Source: Pirellulales bacterium
Lineage (GTDB): Bacteria > Planctomycetota > Planctomycetia > Pirellulales > S012-138
Assembly (NCBI GenBank): GCA_028066245.1
Contig: JALCBR010000002.1
Span: forward strand, 96,758 to 160,757
Direction: 5' to 3'
DNA length: 64,000 nucleotides
Of this stretch, positions 13,881 to 64,000 are shown piece after piece (within the stretch, counting starts at the first letter, position 1; the number at the start of each line of letters is the position of its first letter). Below the pieces are notes generated by a model. That model ran no database searches. It saw nothing but the letters and a program-made list of their open reading frames with translations, and had not been told where the DNA came from. The position numbers and the translations under genes were made by a program.

Positions 13881-15977
13881 TCATTTACGGTCTTTAGCCG
13901 AAGGGGGCGCAACGAGCGGCTTATCGCCGTTTGCAGAAGATGCGTTCTCTCGTCTGATTCGCAAGATCACGACGGCACGACGCGGCGTTTCGCTCAGAAC
14001 CTTATGATCGAATAGCTGATCAACAGCGGCCAACCCTCCGACCTGCCCGTTCGTTGGTCCTGCACTTGCTTGATGGTGTTCGCGCTGCGACTGACCCTGC
14101 CGCCGTCGCCCGCCGAGTCCAGGCGACCCCGCAAGTTTGTCGAGATCGGCGTTGCCATGATTTCCTTTGCCGCGACCTGCACGGGCGCGCGACCGAACAT
14201 TTCCGCGACGTTGGTTCACGTTTTCGTCTGCCGTGGAGCTACTATTTTCGGAAACCACTGTGTCACCGCCTACTTGCTGATCTTGCAAGCCCGCTTGATC
14301 ATCCGAGAGGCCTATGACTGAATCTGATTTCTCAACGATTGGCCATTGTTGGTACAAACGAACAGGTAGACGAACAGCCAAACCTTGCGAGACCGGCATG
14401 GGCTCGGTATTTGTTCGACCACGTTCGACGTTTTTGTCTGGAGAAGAATTGCGAGCGAACTGTGTGCTTTCTGAGCCGTGTTTCCCTTCCACAAGTGCGC
14501 CCCTAAACCAACTCCCGTCGATCGCTTGGTGTGCAAAGCGATCAATCGATGTCCCTAGGACAACACCATTACCAGCCCCATCTTGATAGAAGTACTGACC
14601 AAGCTGGCTGAACAATTGAGCACTGATTTCTTCGGTCAACTCTTTTTCTTCCGCTGGCGAGTTCGTAGCTGGATCCAATCTCCTGATGAGAGGGGGCTGT
14701 GTTGAAGCAAGAGCTAATCCCGAGATTGCGGCATCGATCCGACCTTGTGTTGATTCAACAAAAAACACTTCAATGCCCAATTGCCCATCAGCGAAAGCGA
14801 GAGTTGAGTCGTTCTTTTCGACTTGTCCACTCGTAGCAATTTGCTGCGCTCTGGCATCGCCGTCCTGTCCGTGGCCTTCACCTGCATCGCGTTTGACAGC
14901 CTCATCTTCTTGAGTTGCCAGCTGCCGCACTCGGCGTTGCGAAAAGAACGCCCACGTTTCACCTTGTGCATCTTGTGGGTCTGAGTTCAGCGCAGACTCA
15001 AACGCCGCCGCGATCTCCGCTTCTGAAACCCCCTCTGGCACGAAAAGATCACAATACAAAACCTCCGTTTGCCATTGTGGTTGCGCAGTGATGTAGTCGG
15101 CGCCGTCCGGAGGTTCGCCAAACTCCGCTAAACTTTGTTGCAGGCGATCTAGCATGCTGAGAACGTCGAGACTGGCTTGCGTATCGTCAGCAGATTCGTC
15201 ATTCTCATCATCCGAAGTGACCTGGGCGAATCGGACGTTGCTACTTCTGCGTCCTAACATTTCGATCTGATGCTCAGGCGAGTCGGCATCAGCAGATCGG
15301 AACTCAAGACCAACTTCCGGCGTGTTTTTCGCTTCGGGCTCCGCGCGGACCTCTGCTTGAACCGACTGGCGATTCTCGACATCGTATGGGTGGCTTGCAT
15401 TCGATTGAGCTTGAATGGAGCTTCCTAGAATACGCACCCCCGCTGATTCTCTAGGCACATTATGACTCAATGCAATGTTGTCACGCATGGCTACATGCGG
15501 AGACGTGCTGCCTGGCGGGAGAAGAATCAACGTAACCAAGCTTACCGCCGCGGCAATCCCGATCCAAGCAGGTGCTTGCCAGCGACTGGCCCTGGGAAGT
15601 GACTCAGGTAGCGCGGTAGTATGCCTTTTCTTTCTTCCATTTCCCTCGATGCGATTTGCTGTTGCGTCACTGCCGGTCGGCTCAGAAGACGTCTTGTGAG
15701 AGGCGGCATCGCGAACGGCCGGACCAAGGAGGATGCCTGGAGGTGCGGCGATGTTCTGTTGGGAGGCGATCTCTTCAAGCACTTCGTCAGTAAAGCGATC
15801 GGTCAGTCGGAACTGAGGAAGTTCTCTGAACGCTGCTTGAATGTCAGGCCAGCCTTGCAGGAATCCACTCAAATCACCGTCAACGTTGGCGGCTTGCTCG
15901 ATTTCTCCGCGCATCGCTTCTGACACCTGATTGTCCAGGTAGGCGGAAACGTCGGGATTATCGCGCCAAGATGACAT
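13881..15977 (-). CDS. Membrane-anchored anti-sigma-factor-like protein, large low-complexity C-terminal part
   Basis: 698 aa; N-terminus SAYLDNQVSEAMRGEIEQ resembles anti-sigma N-terminal regions; one TM WIGIAAAVSLVTLILLP. Confidence 0.75.
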   Translation of the reverse strand: MSSWRDNPDVSAYLDNQVSEAMRGEIEQAANVDGDLSGFLQGWPDIQAAFRELPQFRLTDRFTDEVLEEIASQQNIAAPPGILLGPAVRDAASHKTSSEPTGSDATANRIEGNGRKKRHTTALPESLPRASRWQAPAWIGIAAAVSLVTLILLPPGSTSPHVAMRDNIALSHNVPRESAGVRILGSSIQAQSNASHPYDVENRQSVQAEVRAEPEAKNTPEVGLEFRSADADSPEHQIEMLGRRSSNVRFAQVTSDDENDESADDTQASLDVLSMLDRLQQSLAEFGEPPDGADYITAQPQWQTEVLYCDLFVPEGVSEAEIAAAFESALNSDPQDAQGETWAFFSQRRVRQLATQEDEAVKRDAGEGHGQDGDARAQQIATSGQVEKNDSTLAFADGQLGIEVFFVESTQGRIDAAISGLALASTQPPLIRRLDPATNSPAEEKELTEEISAQLFSQLGQYFYQDGAGNGVVLGTSIDRFAHQAIDGSWFRGALVEGKHGSESTQFARNSSPDKNVERGRTNTEPMPVSQGLAVRLPVRLYQQWPIVEKSDSVIGLSDDQAGLQDQQVGGDTVVSENSSSTADENVNQRRGNVRSRARAGRGKGNHGNADLDKLAGSPGLGGRRRQGQSQREHHQASAGPTNGQVGGLAAVDQLFDHKVLSETPRRAVVILRIRRENASSANGDKPLVAPPSAKDRK

Positions 15978-21586: not shown

Positions 21587-21804
21587 GAATTCGTAAGACG
21601 AGAACCAAGCTGTGGAGAGAATTTTGTGACTCAGCCAGAAGGCATTGAGCAAGAACCATCATAGTTGACCCCCAACAAGTCCGATAGCGGCGCGGAAGGA
21701 GCGACTCTTCCTTCACTTGCGAGAGCGCCGATCCGATTGCCGTTCAGTTCACCTGGACGCTGTCAAGTCATCCCTCGACAGGAGCCTACACGGCCTGCCT
21801 TCAG

Positions 21805-22150
21805 GCGTACGGGCGAAATTGACATTGGTCAAATGTGAGGGGTGTTTCGGGCGTCCACGCGCGCTGCCGAGCGCCATAGGGGGTTGATGGTTAACATGCT
21901 ACTAAGCTTAACGTCGGGATTGCCGGTGATGTTTGCGGTGCCGTTGCTGGTTAATTGCTGGGCATGAAGCGTTTGCGCCCACCCCTTGAATGCGAGAAAA
22001 ACTTGACCGATGTCAATTTCGCCTGTACGCGTGAGAGCGGGGAATGCCGCGGCGATTCCATCGCGCATCTGTGAAGCCATGAGAATGCCGACGAAGAGAT
22101 GTTCTCGAGCGCTTTGTTGATTCCTGTTCTGCTGGCAATTGGTGTCATCC
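21805..22150 (-). repeat. Dispersed composite repeat, copy A
   Basis: Signature inverted pair at 21805-21833 and 22003-22030, plus an arm running to about 22150 that matches copy B in reverse orientation. Confidence 0.85.
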
Positions 22151-22213
22151 AACGCCGTAGCAATAGAGGAATTCATCCCAAAGCTAGTGACGGACCATCA
22201 ACAAGAAAGAGCT

Positions 22214-23149
22214 TTAGTTCTTCTGGTCGTCAATGGTTCGCGCGGAGATCGCGTGAATGTCTGCTTGGATTTGCTGCGTCAGTTGTTCCGGTCCCTCGAA
22301 CGCGACAACGTCCCTCACGCGCCAATGGAAATCAACTTCCAACGGTTGCCCATAAAGATTGCCTTCGAATCCAAGCAGGTGCACTTCGACCTTTTGCCGT
22401 TGTTCGCCAAAAGTTGGGTTGGGGCCGATGTTGATCGCCGCCGGCCAGATTTGATCTCTGGCTAGAGTGGCGCCGCCATAAACGCCAGCGGCGGGGGTCA
22501 GCGTGTCAATGGCATCGATGTTGGCGGTGGGAAATCCGATTTGCCCTCCACGCCCGGCGCCGTGGGTGACCATGCCACGGATGCGATAAGGTTCTGTGAG
22601 TAAATTGGCAGCCGTGTCCACGTCGCCAGCGGCAATGAGCTTTCTTACACGGGAACTCGAGACGATTGCGTCGTCGACATGCAATGCGTCGACAATTTCT
22701 AATGAAATACCGACTGCGTTGCAGAACTCTCGCAAGCGTGCCGTGTCGCCTTCGCGATTGTGCCCGAAGAAAAAGTTTGGCCCTTCGACCATTGCTTTGG
22801 TTGCCAGGTTGCCATTGATGAACGTGTCAAAGAACTCGCCAGCGGAAAGCTTCAGCATTTGCTCGTTGGTCGGATAGCTGATCAAGGCATCCACACCCAA
22901 CTTTGCCAGCAAGTCCGCCTTCCGATCAGTCCACGTCAGCGGTGGTGGACAGGCGTCGGGACGCAGAAGCCGGACCGGATGCGGATCGAACGTAAACACG
23001 ACGGCGGGACCGCCAACTCGTCGTGCTGCGGCAATTAACCGAGCAATGATTTGGGCGTGGCCGCGGTGGACGCCATCAAAATTGCCGACGGTCAGCGCGC
23101 CTCCACGCAAGTCCGCCGGAAAGTCTTCGAAATGCCGAATCAGTTTCAC
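22214..23149 (-). CDS. ribF: Bifunctional riboflavin kinase/FAD synthetase
   Basis: GALTVGNFDGVHRGHAQII; SSSRVRKLIAAGDV; GQIGFPTANID; GVYGGATL. Confidence 0.95.
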   Translation of the reverse strand: MKLIRHFEDFPADLRGGALTVGNFDGVHRGHAQIIARLIAAARRVGGPAVVFTFDPHPVRLLRPDACPPPLTWTDRKADLLAKLGVDALISYPTNEQMLKLSAGEFFDTFINGNLATKAMVEGPNFFFGHNREGDTARLREFCNAVGISLEIVDALHVDDAIVSSSRVRKLIAAGDVDTAANLLTEPYRIRGMVTHGAGRGGQIGFPTANIDAIDTLTPAAGVYGGATLARDQIWPAAINIGPNPTFGEQRQKVEVHLLGFEGNLYGQPLEVDFHWRVRDVVAFEGPEQLTQQIQADIHAISARTIDDQKN

Positions 23150-38595: not shown

Positions 38596-40046
38596 TTTCG
38601 CTTCAAGATGTAAAGGGACCGCTCTGTTTCTGGGATCTGGACAAAACCCGATATCATGAAGTCTGTCTTGAAAGCAGCTTCAAAGCCTGCCCGTGTATAC
38701 TCGGCAAACACATCTTCGCGGGCAGAGAGCAGGCGCCTGACTTGGGAATCTTCTTTCGGTACGAATTCGACGATCAGCGTTTCCCCCAGGGAGGCCGCGT
38801 AGCGGCTGATGTGCCCAAGCGGAACATTCGCGCCAATGGACAGGTGATGGATGAGTCCCAACATCATCACGACATCGACCTTGGCGCGCGCAGCGCGACG
38901 GGCCAGTGAGTGTCGTTCCTGATGGGCCCATCCCAGATCAGGCGATGGGTTGGTCAAATCCAACAGCAAAGGCAAGATCCTCTGTTCACCCGATTGCTTG
39001 CCCGCTTCGTATGCCGCCTGGACACAGTTGTGATCCAAATCCCAAGCGATCGTATGAGCACCCTGTTCTGCAGCGATCCGGCTGAACGCGCCGTTGTTGG
39101 CGCCGAGGTCCCAAACTGTTGTTGGAGCCAATTCGCGCAGCATGTCTGTGATGATGGCATGCTTGGCTGAGAAGGCAGCTTCGCTGTAATTCAACATGGA
39201 GTCATAGTACTCGGACCAAGTGGACCGGCTTCTGCGCATCTTCAAGCCCGCAACGGTCGACTCCAAATGCTCAAGCATTCGTTTGAGCTGCCGATTGCTC
39301 AGCTGGCCGCCGCGCGCCTGACTTGCCTGGCCTGCGGAGGCAAACCGCCGCAAAAATCGAGCATGAGCGTGGACGTGCAAACCGAGTCCAAGCCCCAGTT
39401 GCGTCCGCCAGGGCAACAGCTTAGCGGCTAGGTTGAGGTCAATCCCATCGAGTTGGTTGCGGAACAAACCGCAGAGGGCCGGATCCACTTTCGCCATCAG
39501 TGCTAATGGCGCAAGAAAGTGTTGGCAGAACTGGCGGTAGGCGATCCAGGGTTGACCCGGCTTGTATTGCTCAAACGAAAGCGTATCGATCAGCGCCCAA
39601 GTGCCGCGCCGAGGCTGAACGTTGAACGCACTTGCGTCGCGCAATGTCATGCCGTGTTTGAGTGCCTTCTGCTGCATCCGCAGTGTTGCTAATGCCGCAT
39701 CTTGCAACTGCGCGAATGACCATTCATACGGATAGCTGATAAACGGAAGTTGTTCCGGATATAGAATCCGATGGGCTTGGCTGGTGTCAAAGATCGGTTC
39801 GGCGACTTCTTCATGCGGAATCATGAGTCCGTCGGCAAGAAGCTCTTCGTACAACCCTGTTGTGTGTAGAAGGCCGTACTCGCGCGCAAAGGAACGATTC
39901 ACCTGCCGAAAGATCTTGCCGCCAAATGAGAAGACGCATCCGGCTGGATCTCGCCAAGAGGCGGAATCACGGTGGTATGGCTCATCTGCGATTTCCTTGG
40001 TGAGAGGCGCAGGCCCAGCAAACGCATTCACCGGCGAAGTCTTCAT
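38592..40046 (-). CDS. Kinase-like domain fused to class I SAM-dependent methyltransferase
   Basis: N-terminal TLRDASAFNVQ...ALIDTLSFEQY resembles a kinase-fold D..N/D-x pattern; C-terminal VWDLGANNGAFSRIAAEQG SAM motif; ATGA overlap with the downstream gene; start at MKTSPVNAFAG. Confidence 0.85.
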   Translation of the reverse strand: MKTSPVNAFAGPAPLTKEIADEPYHRDSASWRDPAGCVFSFGGKIFRQVNRSFAREYGLLHTTGLYEELLADGLMIPHEEVAEPIFDTSQAHRILYPEQLPFISYPYEWSFAQLQDAALATLRMQQKALKHGMTLRDASAFNVQPRRGTWALIDTLSFEQYKPGQPWIAYRQFCQHFLAPLALMAKVDPALCGLFRNQLDGIDLNLAAKLLPWRTQLGLGLGLHVHAHARFLRRFASAGQASQARGGQLSNRQLKRMLEHLESTVAGLKMRRSRSTWSEYYDSMLNYSEAAFSAKHAIITDMLRELAPTTVWDLGANNGAFSRIAAEQGAHTIAWDLDHNCVQAAYEAGKQSGEQRILPLLLDLTNPSPDLGWAHQERHSLARRAARAKVDVVMMLGLIHHLSIGANVPLGHISRYAASLGETLIVEFVPKEDSQVRRLLSAREDVFAEYTRAGFEAAFKTDFMISGFVQIPETERSLYILKRK

Positions 40047-40411: not shown

Positions 40412-40624
40412 ACCACACGCTCCTTCACATGGTTTGCAGTTGGTGGGATTGCGAATCCTACGCCGGAGCCTGAGATGGAGAAAAGATCACTTCGTGCTTG
40501 CGCCAGCAAGGTAAAGGTTCGTGCGAATGCAAGTTGAATCCAACAAGGGGTCTTGGTGTTGCTTTCAATGCTGTCGCGTCAAGCTGTACTTGGCGTGTGC
40601 TGCGAGGCATGCGAACATCACAGC

Positions 40625-40657
40625 TCTCACACGTACGGGCGAAATTGTCATTGGTCA
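40625..40657 (+). repeat. Solo copy of the repeat signature
   Basis: CTCACACGTACGGGCGAAATTGTCATTGGTCAA, one mismatch in the GAAATTG(A/T)CATTGGTCAA core. Confidence 0.8.
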
Positions 40658-40761
40658 AGTTCGCGCTAGATGGCGTGAGAACTGTCAGGCGCGCTTTCTC
40701 ATCGGCCCCGACGCCGCTAGACTGTTAACAGTCCGCTTGCGTACTCAAAACACAGAGCTCC

Positions 40762-43014
40762 ATGCGTCGCGTTCGCCTGAAACACAATCGCCGCCCGTTT
40801 CTGGCCTACCGCGATTCGCACGGCGTGCCGCGGATTGAAGCTGAGTCGTACGCGTCAGCTCTGTACGGCTTGGGCTACATGCAGGCGCTCGATCGTCCTA
40901 CGCAGATCTTGTTTGCCAGAGCCGTCGCACAGGGGCGTTCGGCAGAATTGATCTCTGACAACGAAAACCTGTTGGAGATGGATCGTTTCTTTCGCCGGGT
41001 TGGCCTATACCTTAACCTCAAGCGCGAAGTTGAATTGCTGGACGAGACGGTCCGTCACAACTTGGAGGCCTTTTGCGAAGGACTCAATGACAGCATGTTG
41101 CCCACGCGGAGGTCACTGCCGATGTGGGCGGTTGGCTTTCAGCCGGAGCCCTGGGATGTGGAAGGGGTCCTGCTGATTGGAAATTTGCTAAATTTCAACG
41201 GCCTGGCCGTTGGGCAGCAGCAGAGCGAACGATTGATCCTGGAGATGGTGCAGGAGGGAATTGAAGAGAAACGTCTGCGGGAACTCTTCTCTCCTTTACT
41301 AGACGATGCGGACCTGGACCTGTTGCGGCAGGTCAAGATTTCCAGCCAGCTTTCTGATGAAGCGCTCGAGCTGATCACCGATCTGCCGAGATTGGCCGGG
41401 AGTAACGCCTGGGCGATCATGCCTAACCGCAGCGAATCCGGCGGCGCACTCCTGGCTGCGGACCCTCACTTGGAGATTAACCGCTTGCCGGCCATTTGGT
41501 ACGAGGCCGTGTTGCAGTTCGGCGACCGCTATTTGATGGGAGCGACATTGCCTGGCTGTCCGACTTTTGGCGTTGGTCGAACTGCGGACGTTGCTTGGGG
41601 CGTCACGTACCTTAAGGGTGACACCAGCGATTACTTCATCGAAGACGTGCGCCAGCACGAGGGCAATTGGCAATATCGTCGCGGTGAATCTTGGCATGAC
41701 TTTGATGTTCGTAGTGAGATTATTCGCCGCAAAGGAACCGGCGAACCCCACGTGTTCCATGTGTATTCCAATGATCAAGGAACTCTGGAGGGCGATCCCA
41801 ATCAGTTGGGACCTGGCTATCAACTGCTAGTTTCCTGGATTGGCGATCACGAAGGCGTCGGTCGGTCCGTGGCAACTTGGGTTAGCTTGGTCGAAGCGAC
41901 TTCTGCCCGAGAGGCCATGAACTTGGTGAGAGAATGCCCTCAACCAACGTTGACTTGGGTATTTGCCGATCGTCGCGGACATGTCGGGCAACAATCGGCC
42001 GGTTGGTTTCCCAAACGGGCTCCAGGTTGCAACGGTGCCGTTCCGCCGCCGGCGTGGGATGAAACCAACCATTGGCGCGGCAGGCTTTCAAATCACATGT
42101 TGCCCTCGGAGTTTGATCCGCCGCGCGGCTTCGTCGCCACAGCCAATGAACCGATCAATCCCGAAGCCGGACCGAAGTTGGTCACGTTACCGACACCAGA
42201 CTACCGCAAGCGACGCCTCGACGAAGAATTGCAGAAACTCCCGCAAGCAACCATCCGGGACATGCAGCGATTGCAGTATGACGTCGTCAACGTTCAAGCT
42301 CGCGATCTGCTCGAAGTCTTCTTGCCGCACTTGCCTGATGGTGAAGTCAAAGAGAAGCTCTCCGCTTGGGACTACAGCTATGACCCTACCAGCGTTGAAG
42401 CCACGATTTTCACGCGACTGTATCGGCAGGTGTTGGTGGAGATCTTTGGTCAAGATCCTCAGCGTGGCGGCATCGGTTGGCGGCGAATTGTCTATCTCGC
42501 CAGCCGAACCGGTTTCTCAACCATGATGGTCACCTGCATTGACCGCGTGCTGATGCAGGAAGATTCATCCTGGTGGGCACCGGGAACCAAAGAACTTCTC
42601 ATCACTGCCGCCGGCGTGCACCTGGATGAGGAATTGAAAAAGAAACCCGCTGCGGCTTGGCGAGAGACGAACGCATTCCGCTTCACCAATCGATTCTTTG
42701 AAGGAACGCTTGTGGGTAAAGCGTTGGGCTTTCACACCGGAGATCGAGCAATGCCCGGCTGCTTTGCCACGCTCTTTCAGGGGCACTTACTCAAAGTCGC
42801 ACAGCGCGAGGCGACGTTCGCTCCGTCGTATCACTTCGTCACGGATTTGAACACGGACGACGCCTGGACCAATCTGCCCGGCGGGCCCAGCGAAAGCCGT
42901 TTCTCAAAGTACTATCGCAGTGACATCCCGTTGTGGGAGACTGGTGAGTACAAACACTTGGACGCATGGCCGCACGAAGAAGAGGAAGCGGATGAAGAAG
43001 AGGACGGAGAGTAG
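40762..43014 (+). CDS. Penicillin acylase (penicillin amidase) family protein, copy 2
   Basis: 750 aa; nucleophile region LAGSNAWAIMPNRSESGGALLAADPHLEINRLPAIW; colinear with copy 1. Confidence 0.93.
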   Translation: MRRVRLKHNRRPFLAYRDSHGVPRIEAESYASALYGLGYMQALDRPTQILFARAVAQGRSAELISDNENLLEMDRFFRRVGLYLNLKREVELLDETVRHNLEAFCEGLNDSMLPTRRSLPMWAVGFQPEPWDVEGVLLIGNLLNFNGLAVGQQQSERLILEMVQEGIEEKRLRELFSPLLDDADLDLLRQVKISSQLSDEALELITDLPRLAGSNAWAIMPNRSESGGALLAADPHLEINRLPAIWYEAVLQFGDRYLMGATLPGCPTFGVGRTADVAWGVTYLKGDTSDYFIEDVRQHEGNWQYRRGESWHDFDVRSEIIRRKGTGEPHVFHVYSNDQGTLEGDPNQLGPGYQLLVSWIGDHEGVGRSVATWVSLVEATSAREAMNLVRECPQPTLTWVFADRRGHVGQQSAGWFPKRAPGCNGAVPPPAWDETNHWRGRLSNHMLPSEFDPPRGFVATANEPINPEAGPKLVTLPTPDYRKRRLDEELQKLPQATIRDMQRLQYDVVNVQARDLLEVFLPHLPDGEVKEKLSAWDYSYDPTSVEATIFTRLYRQVLVEIFGQDPQRGGIGWRRIVYLASRTGFSTMMVTCIDRVLMQEDSSWWAPGTKELLITAAGVHLDEELKKKPAAAWRETNAFRFTNRFFEGTLVGKALGFHTGDRAMPGCFATLFQGHLLKVAQREATFAPSYHFVTDLNTDDAWTNLPGGPSESRFSKYYRSDIPLWETGEYKHLDAWPHEEEEADEEEDGE

Positions 43015-46188: not shown

Positions 46189-47619
46189 ATGAATCGAAGC
46201 GAGACTAAGAAGATGCACCACCGGGAAAAGAGAACTTCTAAACGCAGGAAAGCAGAACCGCGGCGCGGATCGATTCTTGTCCTGTCCACAATCTTCATGA
46301 TCGTCATGCTCGGATTCATCGCTTTGGCCTTGGATACGGGCTACGTTGCGTCGGTCAAGACCGACCTCAAGCGGGCGACTGACGCAGGCGCTCTGGCCGG
46401 AGCTGGCGCACTTGTCAACGGCAGCGACGTGGCCTCGGCCGAGGTCTTGGAATTCATCCAGGCTAACGCTGTCGGCGGGCGAACGATCTCTGCTGACGAC
46501 GTTGACATCACTTTTGGACATTGGGATGACCAGACGGCCTCATTCGCCGCCAGCAATGAACTCCCTTCCGCTGTGCGAGTTGAAGTTGCGCTTGATGATG
46601 CTCCACTGTTTTTTGCACGCGTCCTGGGGAGAGATTCATTCGACCTGACTGACGAATCGATCGCCATGTACCAGCCGCGGGATATCCTGCTTGTGTTGGA
46701 TTACTCAGGCTCGATGAATGATGACAGCGAATTGAAATCCGAATGGAGAATGGGCGTCACGGAAATCGACACGAACTTACAGCAGATCTATACCGAGTTG
46801 GGCAGCCCGACTTTTGGAAGCATGCAATGGGATCAGACGCTCTCATCATCGTGGAGCAACTCGTACATTCGATCCTATCTGGGCTTGAACTCTGTCCCTT
46901 ATCCTTACCCCGTCGGCAGCTGGTATGAATACGTGGACTACGTCAAGGGATCTGTCCCGTATGACTACAGACACCACTACGGCTACAAGACTTGGATCAA
47001 CTACTTGCTGCATTGGCGAGAGAGCTCGACCGAAACGCCCGCCCTCTGGCAAACCAGCGAGCAACCGATTACCGCGCTGAAGAACTCCGTGAGTGTGTTC
47101 CTCGCCTACCTGCAAGAGGTTGATACGGATGATCGCCTGGGGTTATCCGTATACACGGCTTCGGACGGAACCTCCTATCTGGAGCACGAACTGACACGAG
47201 ACTTTGACGCTGTGGAAACCACCTCGCGTGAACGTCAGGCTGGGCATTATCATTCCATGACGAACATCGGCGCTGGCATCCTGACTGCGCGTGAAGAGAT
47301 CCAGGAGCACGGTCGAACCGGCGCATTCAAGATGATTGTGCTCATGACCGATGGCATCGCTAACAGACCTTACAGTTCCAGCTATGCCAGACAATACGCC
47401 TTGGATCAGGCCCAAGATTGCGCTGACGCTGGAATCCCGGTTGTTACGATCAGTTTAGGTGCTGGAGCTGACACCGGCTTGATGAATTCTATCGCCAACA
47501 TGACCGGCGGAGTCCATTTCAACATTCCGGGCGGCCAATCCGTGGAAGACTATGAAGAGGATCTAAAAGACGCCTTCCGAGAAATCGCCGATGACCGGCC
47601 GCTGAAACTGGTCAAATAG
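46189..47619 (+). CDS. TadE/TadG-like pseudopilin-type protein with vWA domain
   Basis: RRGSILVLSTIFMIVMLGFIALALDTGYVASVKTDLKRATDAGALAGA; MIDAS DYSGSMNDDS; VLMTDGIANRP. Confidence 0.88.
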   Translation: MNRSETKKMHHREKRTSKRRKAEPRRGSILVLSTIFMIVMLGFIALALDTGYVASVKTDLKRATDAGALAGAGALVNGSDVASAEVLEFIQANAVGGRTISADDVDITFGHWDDQTASFAASNELPSAVRVEVALDDAPLFFARVLGRDSFDLTDESIAMYQPRDILLVLDYSGSMNDDSELKSEWRMGVTEIDTNLQQIYTELGSPTFGSMQWDQTLSSSWSNSYIRSYLGLNSVPYPYPVGSWYEYVDYVKGSVPYDYRHHYGYKTWINYLLHWRESSTETPALWQTSEQPITALKNSVSVFLAYLQEVDTDDRLGLSVYTASDGTSYLEHELTRDFDAVETTSRERQAGHYHSMTNIGAGILTAREEIQEHGRTGAFKMIVLMTDGIANRPYSSSYARQYALDQAQDCADAGIPVVTISLGAGADTGLMNSIANMTGGVHFNIPGGQSVEDYEEDLKDAFREIADDRPLKLVK

Positions 47620-47654
47620 GTCCGGCCGGCGACCAACACAGAAGAAATGACCCG

Positions 47655-47689
47655 GACTTGAAGGATCAACTTCAAGTCTGTTTTTTTTT
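47655..47689 (+). terminator. Rho-independent terminator after the vWA gene
   Basis: Perfect 9-bp stem GACTTGAAG-GATCAA-CTTCAAGTC followed by TG then nine T residues. Confidence 0.9.
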
Positions 47690-47810
47690 CTGGATCTACG
47701 GTTCGGTCCATGTCAAAGCATCTTCACTCGAGATTGCTTCTCTTGTTGACGGCCCGTCGCCAACATTGACGAAATTAATGTTGCTGAGGTGTTGAACGAC
47801 ACGCGACTGC

Positions 47811-48163
47811 GCGCAGAACAGGAATCAACAACGCGCTCAGAAGATCTCCCTGATTGGTGTTCTATTCGTCGCAAGCCCATCGCTTCGCGGCCGCGTGATT
47901 GAATTGCCGTGGCGTTTCCCGCGCGGCCTGCTCTCATGCGTACGGGCGAAATTAACATTGGTCAAACTTTTCCCGCCTCCAGGGGGTGGCGCAAACGCTT
48001 CACGCCCATGCAATTGACCAGCAACGTCACCGAGAACATCACCGGCAATCCTGACGTTAAGTTCAGTAGGAAGTGAACCGGCAACCCCTTATGGTGCTCG
48101 GCAGCGCGCATGGCGGCGCGAAACACCCTTCAAATTTGACCAATGTTAATTTCGCCCGTACGC
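47811..48163 (+). repeat. Dispersed composite repeat, copy B
   Basis: Signature inverted pair at 47938-47966 and 48135-48163; the interior aligns to the reverse complement of copy A (e.g. GATTGCCGGTGATGTT, GAAGCGTTTGCGCC). Confidence 0.87.
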
Positions 48164-48338
48164 GTGAGCGCAGGGCGCGTGGGCTCCATCGCGGGGGACT
48201 TGCCAAACTCCGTCCAGGCCAGCGGAACAGCAATCGGACATGTGCTTCGGCACCGCAGTTCCGGGAGCTTTCTGCGTTGACAGCTATCAACTGGGCAGCG
48301 AGATTTTGGGCAATTTCCCAAACGTGGTCTTTCCCTAA

Positions 48339-50369
<2,031 letters not shown>

Positions 50370-63861: not shown

Positions 63862-64000
63862 TGTTCGAGAACATCTCCCTGATTGGCGTTCTGTTCGTCG
63901 GCATTTTTTCATCGCTTCGCGGATGCGTGATGGAATTGCCGTGGCGTTCCCGCGCGCCCTGCTCTGAGGCGTACGGGCGAAATTGACATTGGTCAAATTT
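63862..64000 (+). repeat. Dispersed repeat, copy C, truncated by the right window edge
   Basis: Left arm TCTCCCTGATTGGCGTTCTGTTCGTCG...GATGGAATTGCCGTGGCGTT plus signature at 63969-63997. Confidence 0.82.

Follow-up and report, generated by a model that had tools for sequence, protein, structure and literature searches.

Several described families of intergenic repeats and their parent elements bear comparison with the repeat that lies upstream of ligA in this Pirellulales genome, which we regard as a non-autonomous mobile element (MITE). RUP, the repeat unit of pneumococcus, is a known MITE linked to IS630-Spn1 (PMC2229807), and the present family resembles it in its ~100 intergenic copies, its IS630-family ends and its TA target. 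RUP is, however, 107 bp long with no internal inverted module reported in PMC2229807, whereas the present MITE measures ~500 bp, encloses a recombining core and has IS relatives that were all found broken. The Correia/NEMIS elements of Neisseria are likewise TA-ended MITEs; they come in two lengths, and the longer of the two includes an internal insert in which a motif for protein binding (IHF) is found (PMC2229807). They differ in terminal inverted repeat and host, and in the present MITE it is the inner module itself that has inverted repeats on either side and that is found both ways round. REP, BIME and REPIN elements share the paired inverted conserved motifs, the intergenic location at gene 3' ends and the preference for convergent or unidirectional gene pairs (PMC3733652, PMC3116915), but theirs are RAYT transposases and GTAG/CGTC-tagged palindromes, neither of which was found for the present MITE. 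Finally, the IS630-family element ISY100 (Tc1/mariner) has the same TA target and a DDE_3 transposase (PMC2170065), and the termini of the present MITE are those of relics of this kind in its own genome; ISY100 is autonomous, whereas no intact copy was found here. The element is best filed as a high-copy, IS630 (Tc1/mariner-type)-derived MITE family with a recombining core, a reading to which we give a probability of about 0.87.

The window, a stretch of 64,000 nt, is part of contig 45, and its end is the contig end (C45:160757). The copy upstream of ligA, copy B, was delimited by aligning family copies with their flanks, similarity stopping at CTAG-type termini, and occupies 47729..48249 (+), 521 bp, in the arrangement L-core-R. 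The interval 47811-48163, which the original prediction had taken for the element, is therefore the middle of a longer unit. Pfam analysis of the neighbours places copy B between a Tad/VWA-domain gene (46189-47619, +) and ligA (48354-50369, +), whose identity was confirmed; the predicted position directly upstream of ligA holds, as the element ends 104 bp before the start codon at 48354. The nearest named relatives of this LigA belong to Planctomycetaceae/Pirellulales MAGs, with 66% identity at best, so that an uncultured bacterium of this group is the most likely host. A strong terminator-like hairpin followed by a T-run is present at 47653-47680, behind the Tad/VWA gene and outside copy B.

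The family unit consists of an L arm of ~200 bp (outer end CTAGAGCGCTTTTCTTGTTGACG), an inner repeat with the 29-bp signature, a ~168-bp core, a second signature and an R arm of ~86 bp. In copy B, the L-type left arm spans 47729..47937 (+) and has the outer end CGAGATTGCTTCTCTTGTTG (family consensus CTAGAGCGCTTTTCTTGTTG); a left arm common to the copies had been predicted, and it is real, but it is ~200 bp rather than ~125 bp long. The R-type right arm spans 48164..48249 (+), and its end, which read inward is the family's CTAGAGCACCTGTCCGATTGCTGTTCCGCTC, resembles the 5' end of the IS630 relics described below. The two facing signatures are indeed present and exact, at 47938..47966 (+) and 48135..48163 (-). 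They lie within inner inverted-repeat arms of 52 nt each, at 47918..47969 (+) and 48132..48183 (-), which are 90% complementary to each other, and they enclose the 168-bp core at 47967..48134, which across the family occurs in both orientations relative to the arms. The signatures had been called terminal; they are inverted but internal, the true CTAGAGC ends being located ~85-210 bp further out. Just outside each signature (window 47937 and 48164) lies a single hypervariable base, G, C or T and hardly ever A when read inward; nearly every copy has it between two conserved blocks, CTCTCA and GCGTACGG.

Within the window, the signature has six matches at up to 3 mismatches, against 0.00 expected from shuffles. 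Copy A occupies 21720..22217 (-), 498 bp. A FAD synthetase/riboflavin kinase gene (22214-23149, -) meets it with its 3' end at the L end (CTAAAGC), which contains the stop codon of that gene. The shared interior of ~170 bp predicted for copies A and B was recovered as a match of 178 bp at 85% identity; this match is inverted (21781-21958 versus 48010-48187), so copy A lies on the opposite strand. A decayed half-copy at 40619..40661 (+) retains one signature and part of the inner repeat and has lost the core; it adjoins a penicillin amidase-family gene (PF01804; window 40762-43014). The start of a third copy, at 63910..64000 (+), is cut by the contig end.

With up to 3 mismatches allowed, the 4.94-Mb draft genome of 186 contigs yields 204 occurrences of the signature, 104 of them forward and 100 reverse; 98 of the matches listed are exact, while the reversed-pattern control has none. 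Pairs of signatures mark ~100 copies of one element, dispersed in intergenic DNA; BLAST of the genome with a 401-bp query returned 119 pieces, with whole copies at 80-88% identity, and 66 near-complete cores from the genome-wide copies formed the set analysed further. Many of these matches fall at contig ends, many contig ends lie within the element, and the repeat has evidently caused the assembly to break there; the family thus limits assembly. Outside this genome, the signature had no match in 57 relatives of the same family or order, in the viral contigs, plasmids and phages scanned, or in an exact scan of the genomes of 85,462 species from which the records of this genome itself were possibly excluded. 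BLAST of the core against the genomes of the relatives returned only short pieces at background level (best E 0.001). The MITE family is real, lineage-restricted and high-copy, lies far from chance, and is ordinary in kind apart from its unusual inner core.

The termini are CTAG-centred (CTAGAGC...GCTCTAG): conservation starts at the CTAG, and the flanks beyond it are unrelated between copies. The R arm of the aligned copies has the outer end CTAGAGCACCTGTCCGATTGCTGTTCCGCTC, read inward, and shares only ~10 of its 14 terminal bases with the L end, a point against the IS630-derived MITE reading. The terminal motif CTAGAGCRCYTKTCYKRTTG has 120 matches in the genome against 11 for its control, and one of these abuts a DDE_3 (IS630) transposase relic on contig 16. 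The best-preserved copies have CTAG at both ends, and no target duplication longer than this CTAG/TA was seen. The copies are non-coding, with disrupted frames and no gene inside, and they are short, although at ~500 bp they exceed the usual range of bacterial MITEs, which published descriptions put at under 200 to 300 bp.

Degenerate IS630-family (DDE_3; PF13358) transposase relics in the same genome, on contigs 16 and 60 with a further relic on contig 121, have ends that match the terminal 20-37 bp of the MITE. The relic on contig 16 (L138, C16:19012-19618, ~607 bp) contains a truncated, frameshifted transposase between CTAGAGCGACTCTTTGATTGCTGTTCCG... and ...GTAAGTGGAAAAACGCTCTAG; that on contig 121 (L178, ~14789-15230) has the same 5' end, and that on contig 60 (L139, ~38878-39450) consists of a transposase fragment and a 3' end closely similar to that on contig 16. 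A transposase 3' fragment also adjoins the element on contig 69 (L154, ~12570). The ends of the MITE and of the relics on contigs 16 and 121, relatives that are themselves broken, are thus similar; no intact IS630 transposase with these ends was found in the draft genome. Mini-elements of ~100 bp (86-171 bp; L119, L123, L124, L125, L136, L182, L185), which carry both L and R ends and no core, bridge the MITE and the relics: some of their R ends have the relic form (CTAGAGCGGCTCTTTGATTG), the R end being IS-relic sequence in L124 and L136 and intermediate in L185. L119, L123 and L182 look like core-deletion derivatives. With its ~100 dispersed, non-coding intergenic copies and termini common with IS630 relics, the element bears out the original prediction of a non-autonomous mobile element.

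Within the IS630 family, ISY100 transposes into TA with TA duplication (PMC2170065), and a CTAG preference for IS630 is named in the reference list of that paper. The terminal CTAG consensus agrees with this, and so does the placement of the copies among genes. Only one of 46 copies with usable flanks overlaps a predicted gene, a low-scoring one, and the neighbouring gene pairs are convergent in 17 cases and divergent in two (p = 0.0007). By comparison, the window's own gene pairs are convergent and divergent in seven cases each, and its longer gaps are more often divergent than convergent. At 13 of 62 precisely located ends, the neighbouring gene stops with the TAG or TAA that belongs to the terminal C-TA-G, the offset being identical in every case; an insertion into a TAG stop codon at its TA would produce this arrangement. 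Such insertion explains the position behind genes, a preference also shared by REPs (PMC3733652), without invoking function, with which it remains compatible.

As we infer the movement of the MITE itself, an IS630 transposase would have recognised the MITE ends in trans and inserted the element at TA within CTAG, presumably duplicating the TA. Insertions in intergenic DNA, mostly downstream of genes and in many cases right within a TAG stop codon, may have persisted because they were harmless there; the copies would have decayed afterwards. Since only broken IS630 transposases were found, the MITE is probably no longer moving. Under plain decay, however, one would not expect the termini to be less well preserved than the internal signatures.

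In 38 L-core-R copies, substitution amounts to 2.1% in the right signature, the best-conserved 29-bp stretch of the element, and 4.7% in the left one, against ~9-10% over most core positions and ~17% in the R arm. The L arm, which many copies have lost in its outer part, shows a still higher value. The signatures are the two substitution minima along the whole element. By local alignment the core is 90% identical and both arms 84-85%, so the contrast between core and arms is moderate. Copies were partly found through the signature itself, but where one signature of a copy is perfect, the other still averages ~0.6-1.4 mismatches in 29, with one truncated copy set aside. Signature conservation is hence not a search artefact.

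These minima lend some weight to a possible but, in our view, rather unlikely alternative, in which the signatures and core are a functional module kept by selection at ~100 intergenic sites, the MITE being only its vehicle. A TTGACNNNNGTCAA-type palindrome might, for example, be the target of a protein of the nucleoid, a regulator or a recombinase, which would be compatible with a MITE origin. Besides surviving conditioning, the conservation would agree in this respect with Correia elements, in which the internal insert carries an IHF site (PMC2229807), and the enrichment behind convergent genes points the same way, although that location is also expected from insertion neutrality. On the other hand, the promoter scan of the element found nothing beyond chance, its two terminator-like matches both lying outside, and there is no Rfam match. 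Furthermore, about one left signature in three lacks an intact palindrome: the predicted TTGAC-ATTG-GTCAA hairpin is present in copy B, but 21 of 65 copies have TTGTC as their left motif, and the hairpin is not strictly kept. Similarity between signatures could also result from gene conversion that has its centre in the longest exact repeats. The association of alleles between the two signatures of one copy is weak (p = 0.01 at position 18), and we draw no argument from it.

In the MITE family as we read it, the core adds a second history. Across loci it occurs in both orientations relative to the arms, L-core-R in 39 copies and R-core-L in 10, a comparison between loci rather than within the population of one locus. 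On the weakly resolved core tree, the inverted copies require 7 changes, of which at least two are forced by supported branches. Over 43 core sites with two alleles, r2 drops with distance, being 0.17 at <5 bp and ~0.04 at >15 bp, a trend matched in none of 2000 permutations; core variants lose their linkage over tens of bases, as gene conversion would give. Together, both orientations and the linkage decay point to recombination between the inverted repeats and between copies. The ~170-bp core, between two inverted repeats of ~45 bp, would thus have kept recombining, probably by homologous recombination or gene conversion, so that cores flip and variants shuffle, while selection or conversion may have kept the signatures.

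An improbable variant of this scheme replaces general homologous recombination by a site-specific recombinase that flips the core at the signatures, as a genome-wide inversion system. The two orientations with their several changes on the tree would suit it, as would strongly conserved signatures that are inverted and 168 bp apart, and the genome has 26 PF00589 matches, which amount to some 20 genes or gene fragments for tyrosine recombinases, as well as four serine-recombinase genes. None of these, however, is linked to the element, free flipping would give a ratio of 1:1 rather than 39:10, and the ~45-bp common repeat is long enough for RecA-type exchange. Linkage decay throughout the core is not expected from such inversion, and its gradual course favours general recombination over a dedicated recombinase. 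Slightly less probable still is a combined view, in which a transposon spread ~100 invertible cassettes; their signatures would be sites at which a host recombinase or DNA-binding protein acts in trans, so that cores behind many genes continue to be flipped or exchanged.

The other readings fare worse. We consider a structured non-coding RNA or RNA leader family very unlikely: as single-stranded DNA, copy B has a stable predicted fold (z = -7.3), and the placement is intergenic, but the fold is accounted for by the inverted repeat itself, compensatory changes are few (covariation term only -0.65 kcal/mol), the core is found in both orientations relative to the arms, and Rfam at gathering and relaxed thresholds gave no match to the element and one weak chance hit outside it. 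Hardly more credible, and if anything less so, is the REP-like alternative, in which a RAYT (Y1) transposase would have mobilised a family of the REP, BIME or REPIN type. Two short inverted conserved motifs around a spacer do resemble a REPIN, and the genome has three Y1_Tnp genes; neither the signature nor the element ends occur near any of the three, and the termini are of IS630 type, the relics with the same ends being DDE_3. A protein-coding family in the core is refuted, despite stretches that read like protein in one frame, by 1-bp length differences (224-228) and by a best frame that is open in only 28 of 65 copies.

The IS630-derived MITE family makes up ~1% of the genome (~100 copies of ~500 bp in 4.94 Mb). 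Its diverged copies constitute a natural data set on the recombination of repeated DNA in one bacterial genome, and they also bear on why an internal motif outlasts the ends of the transposon that carried it.
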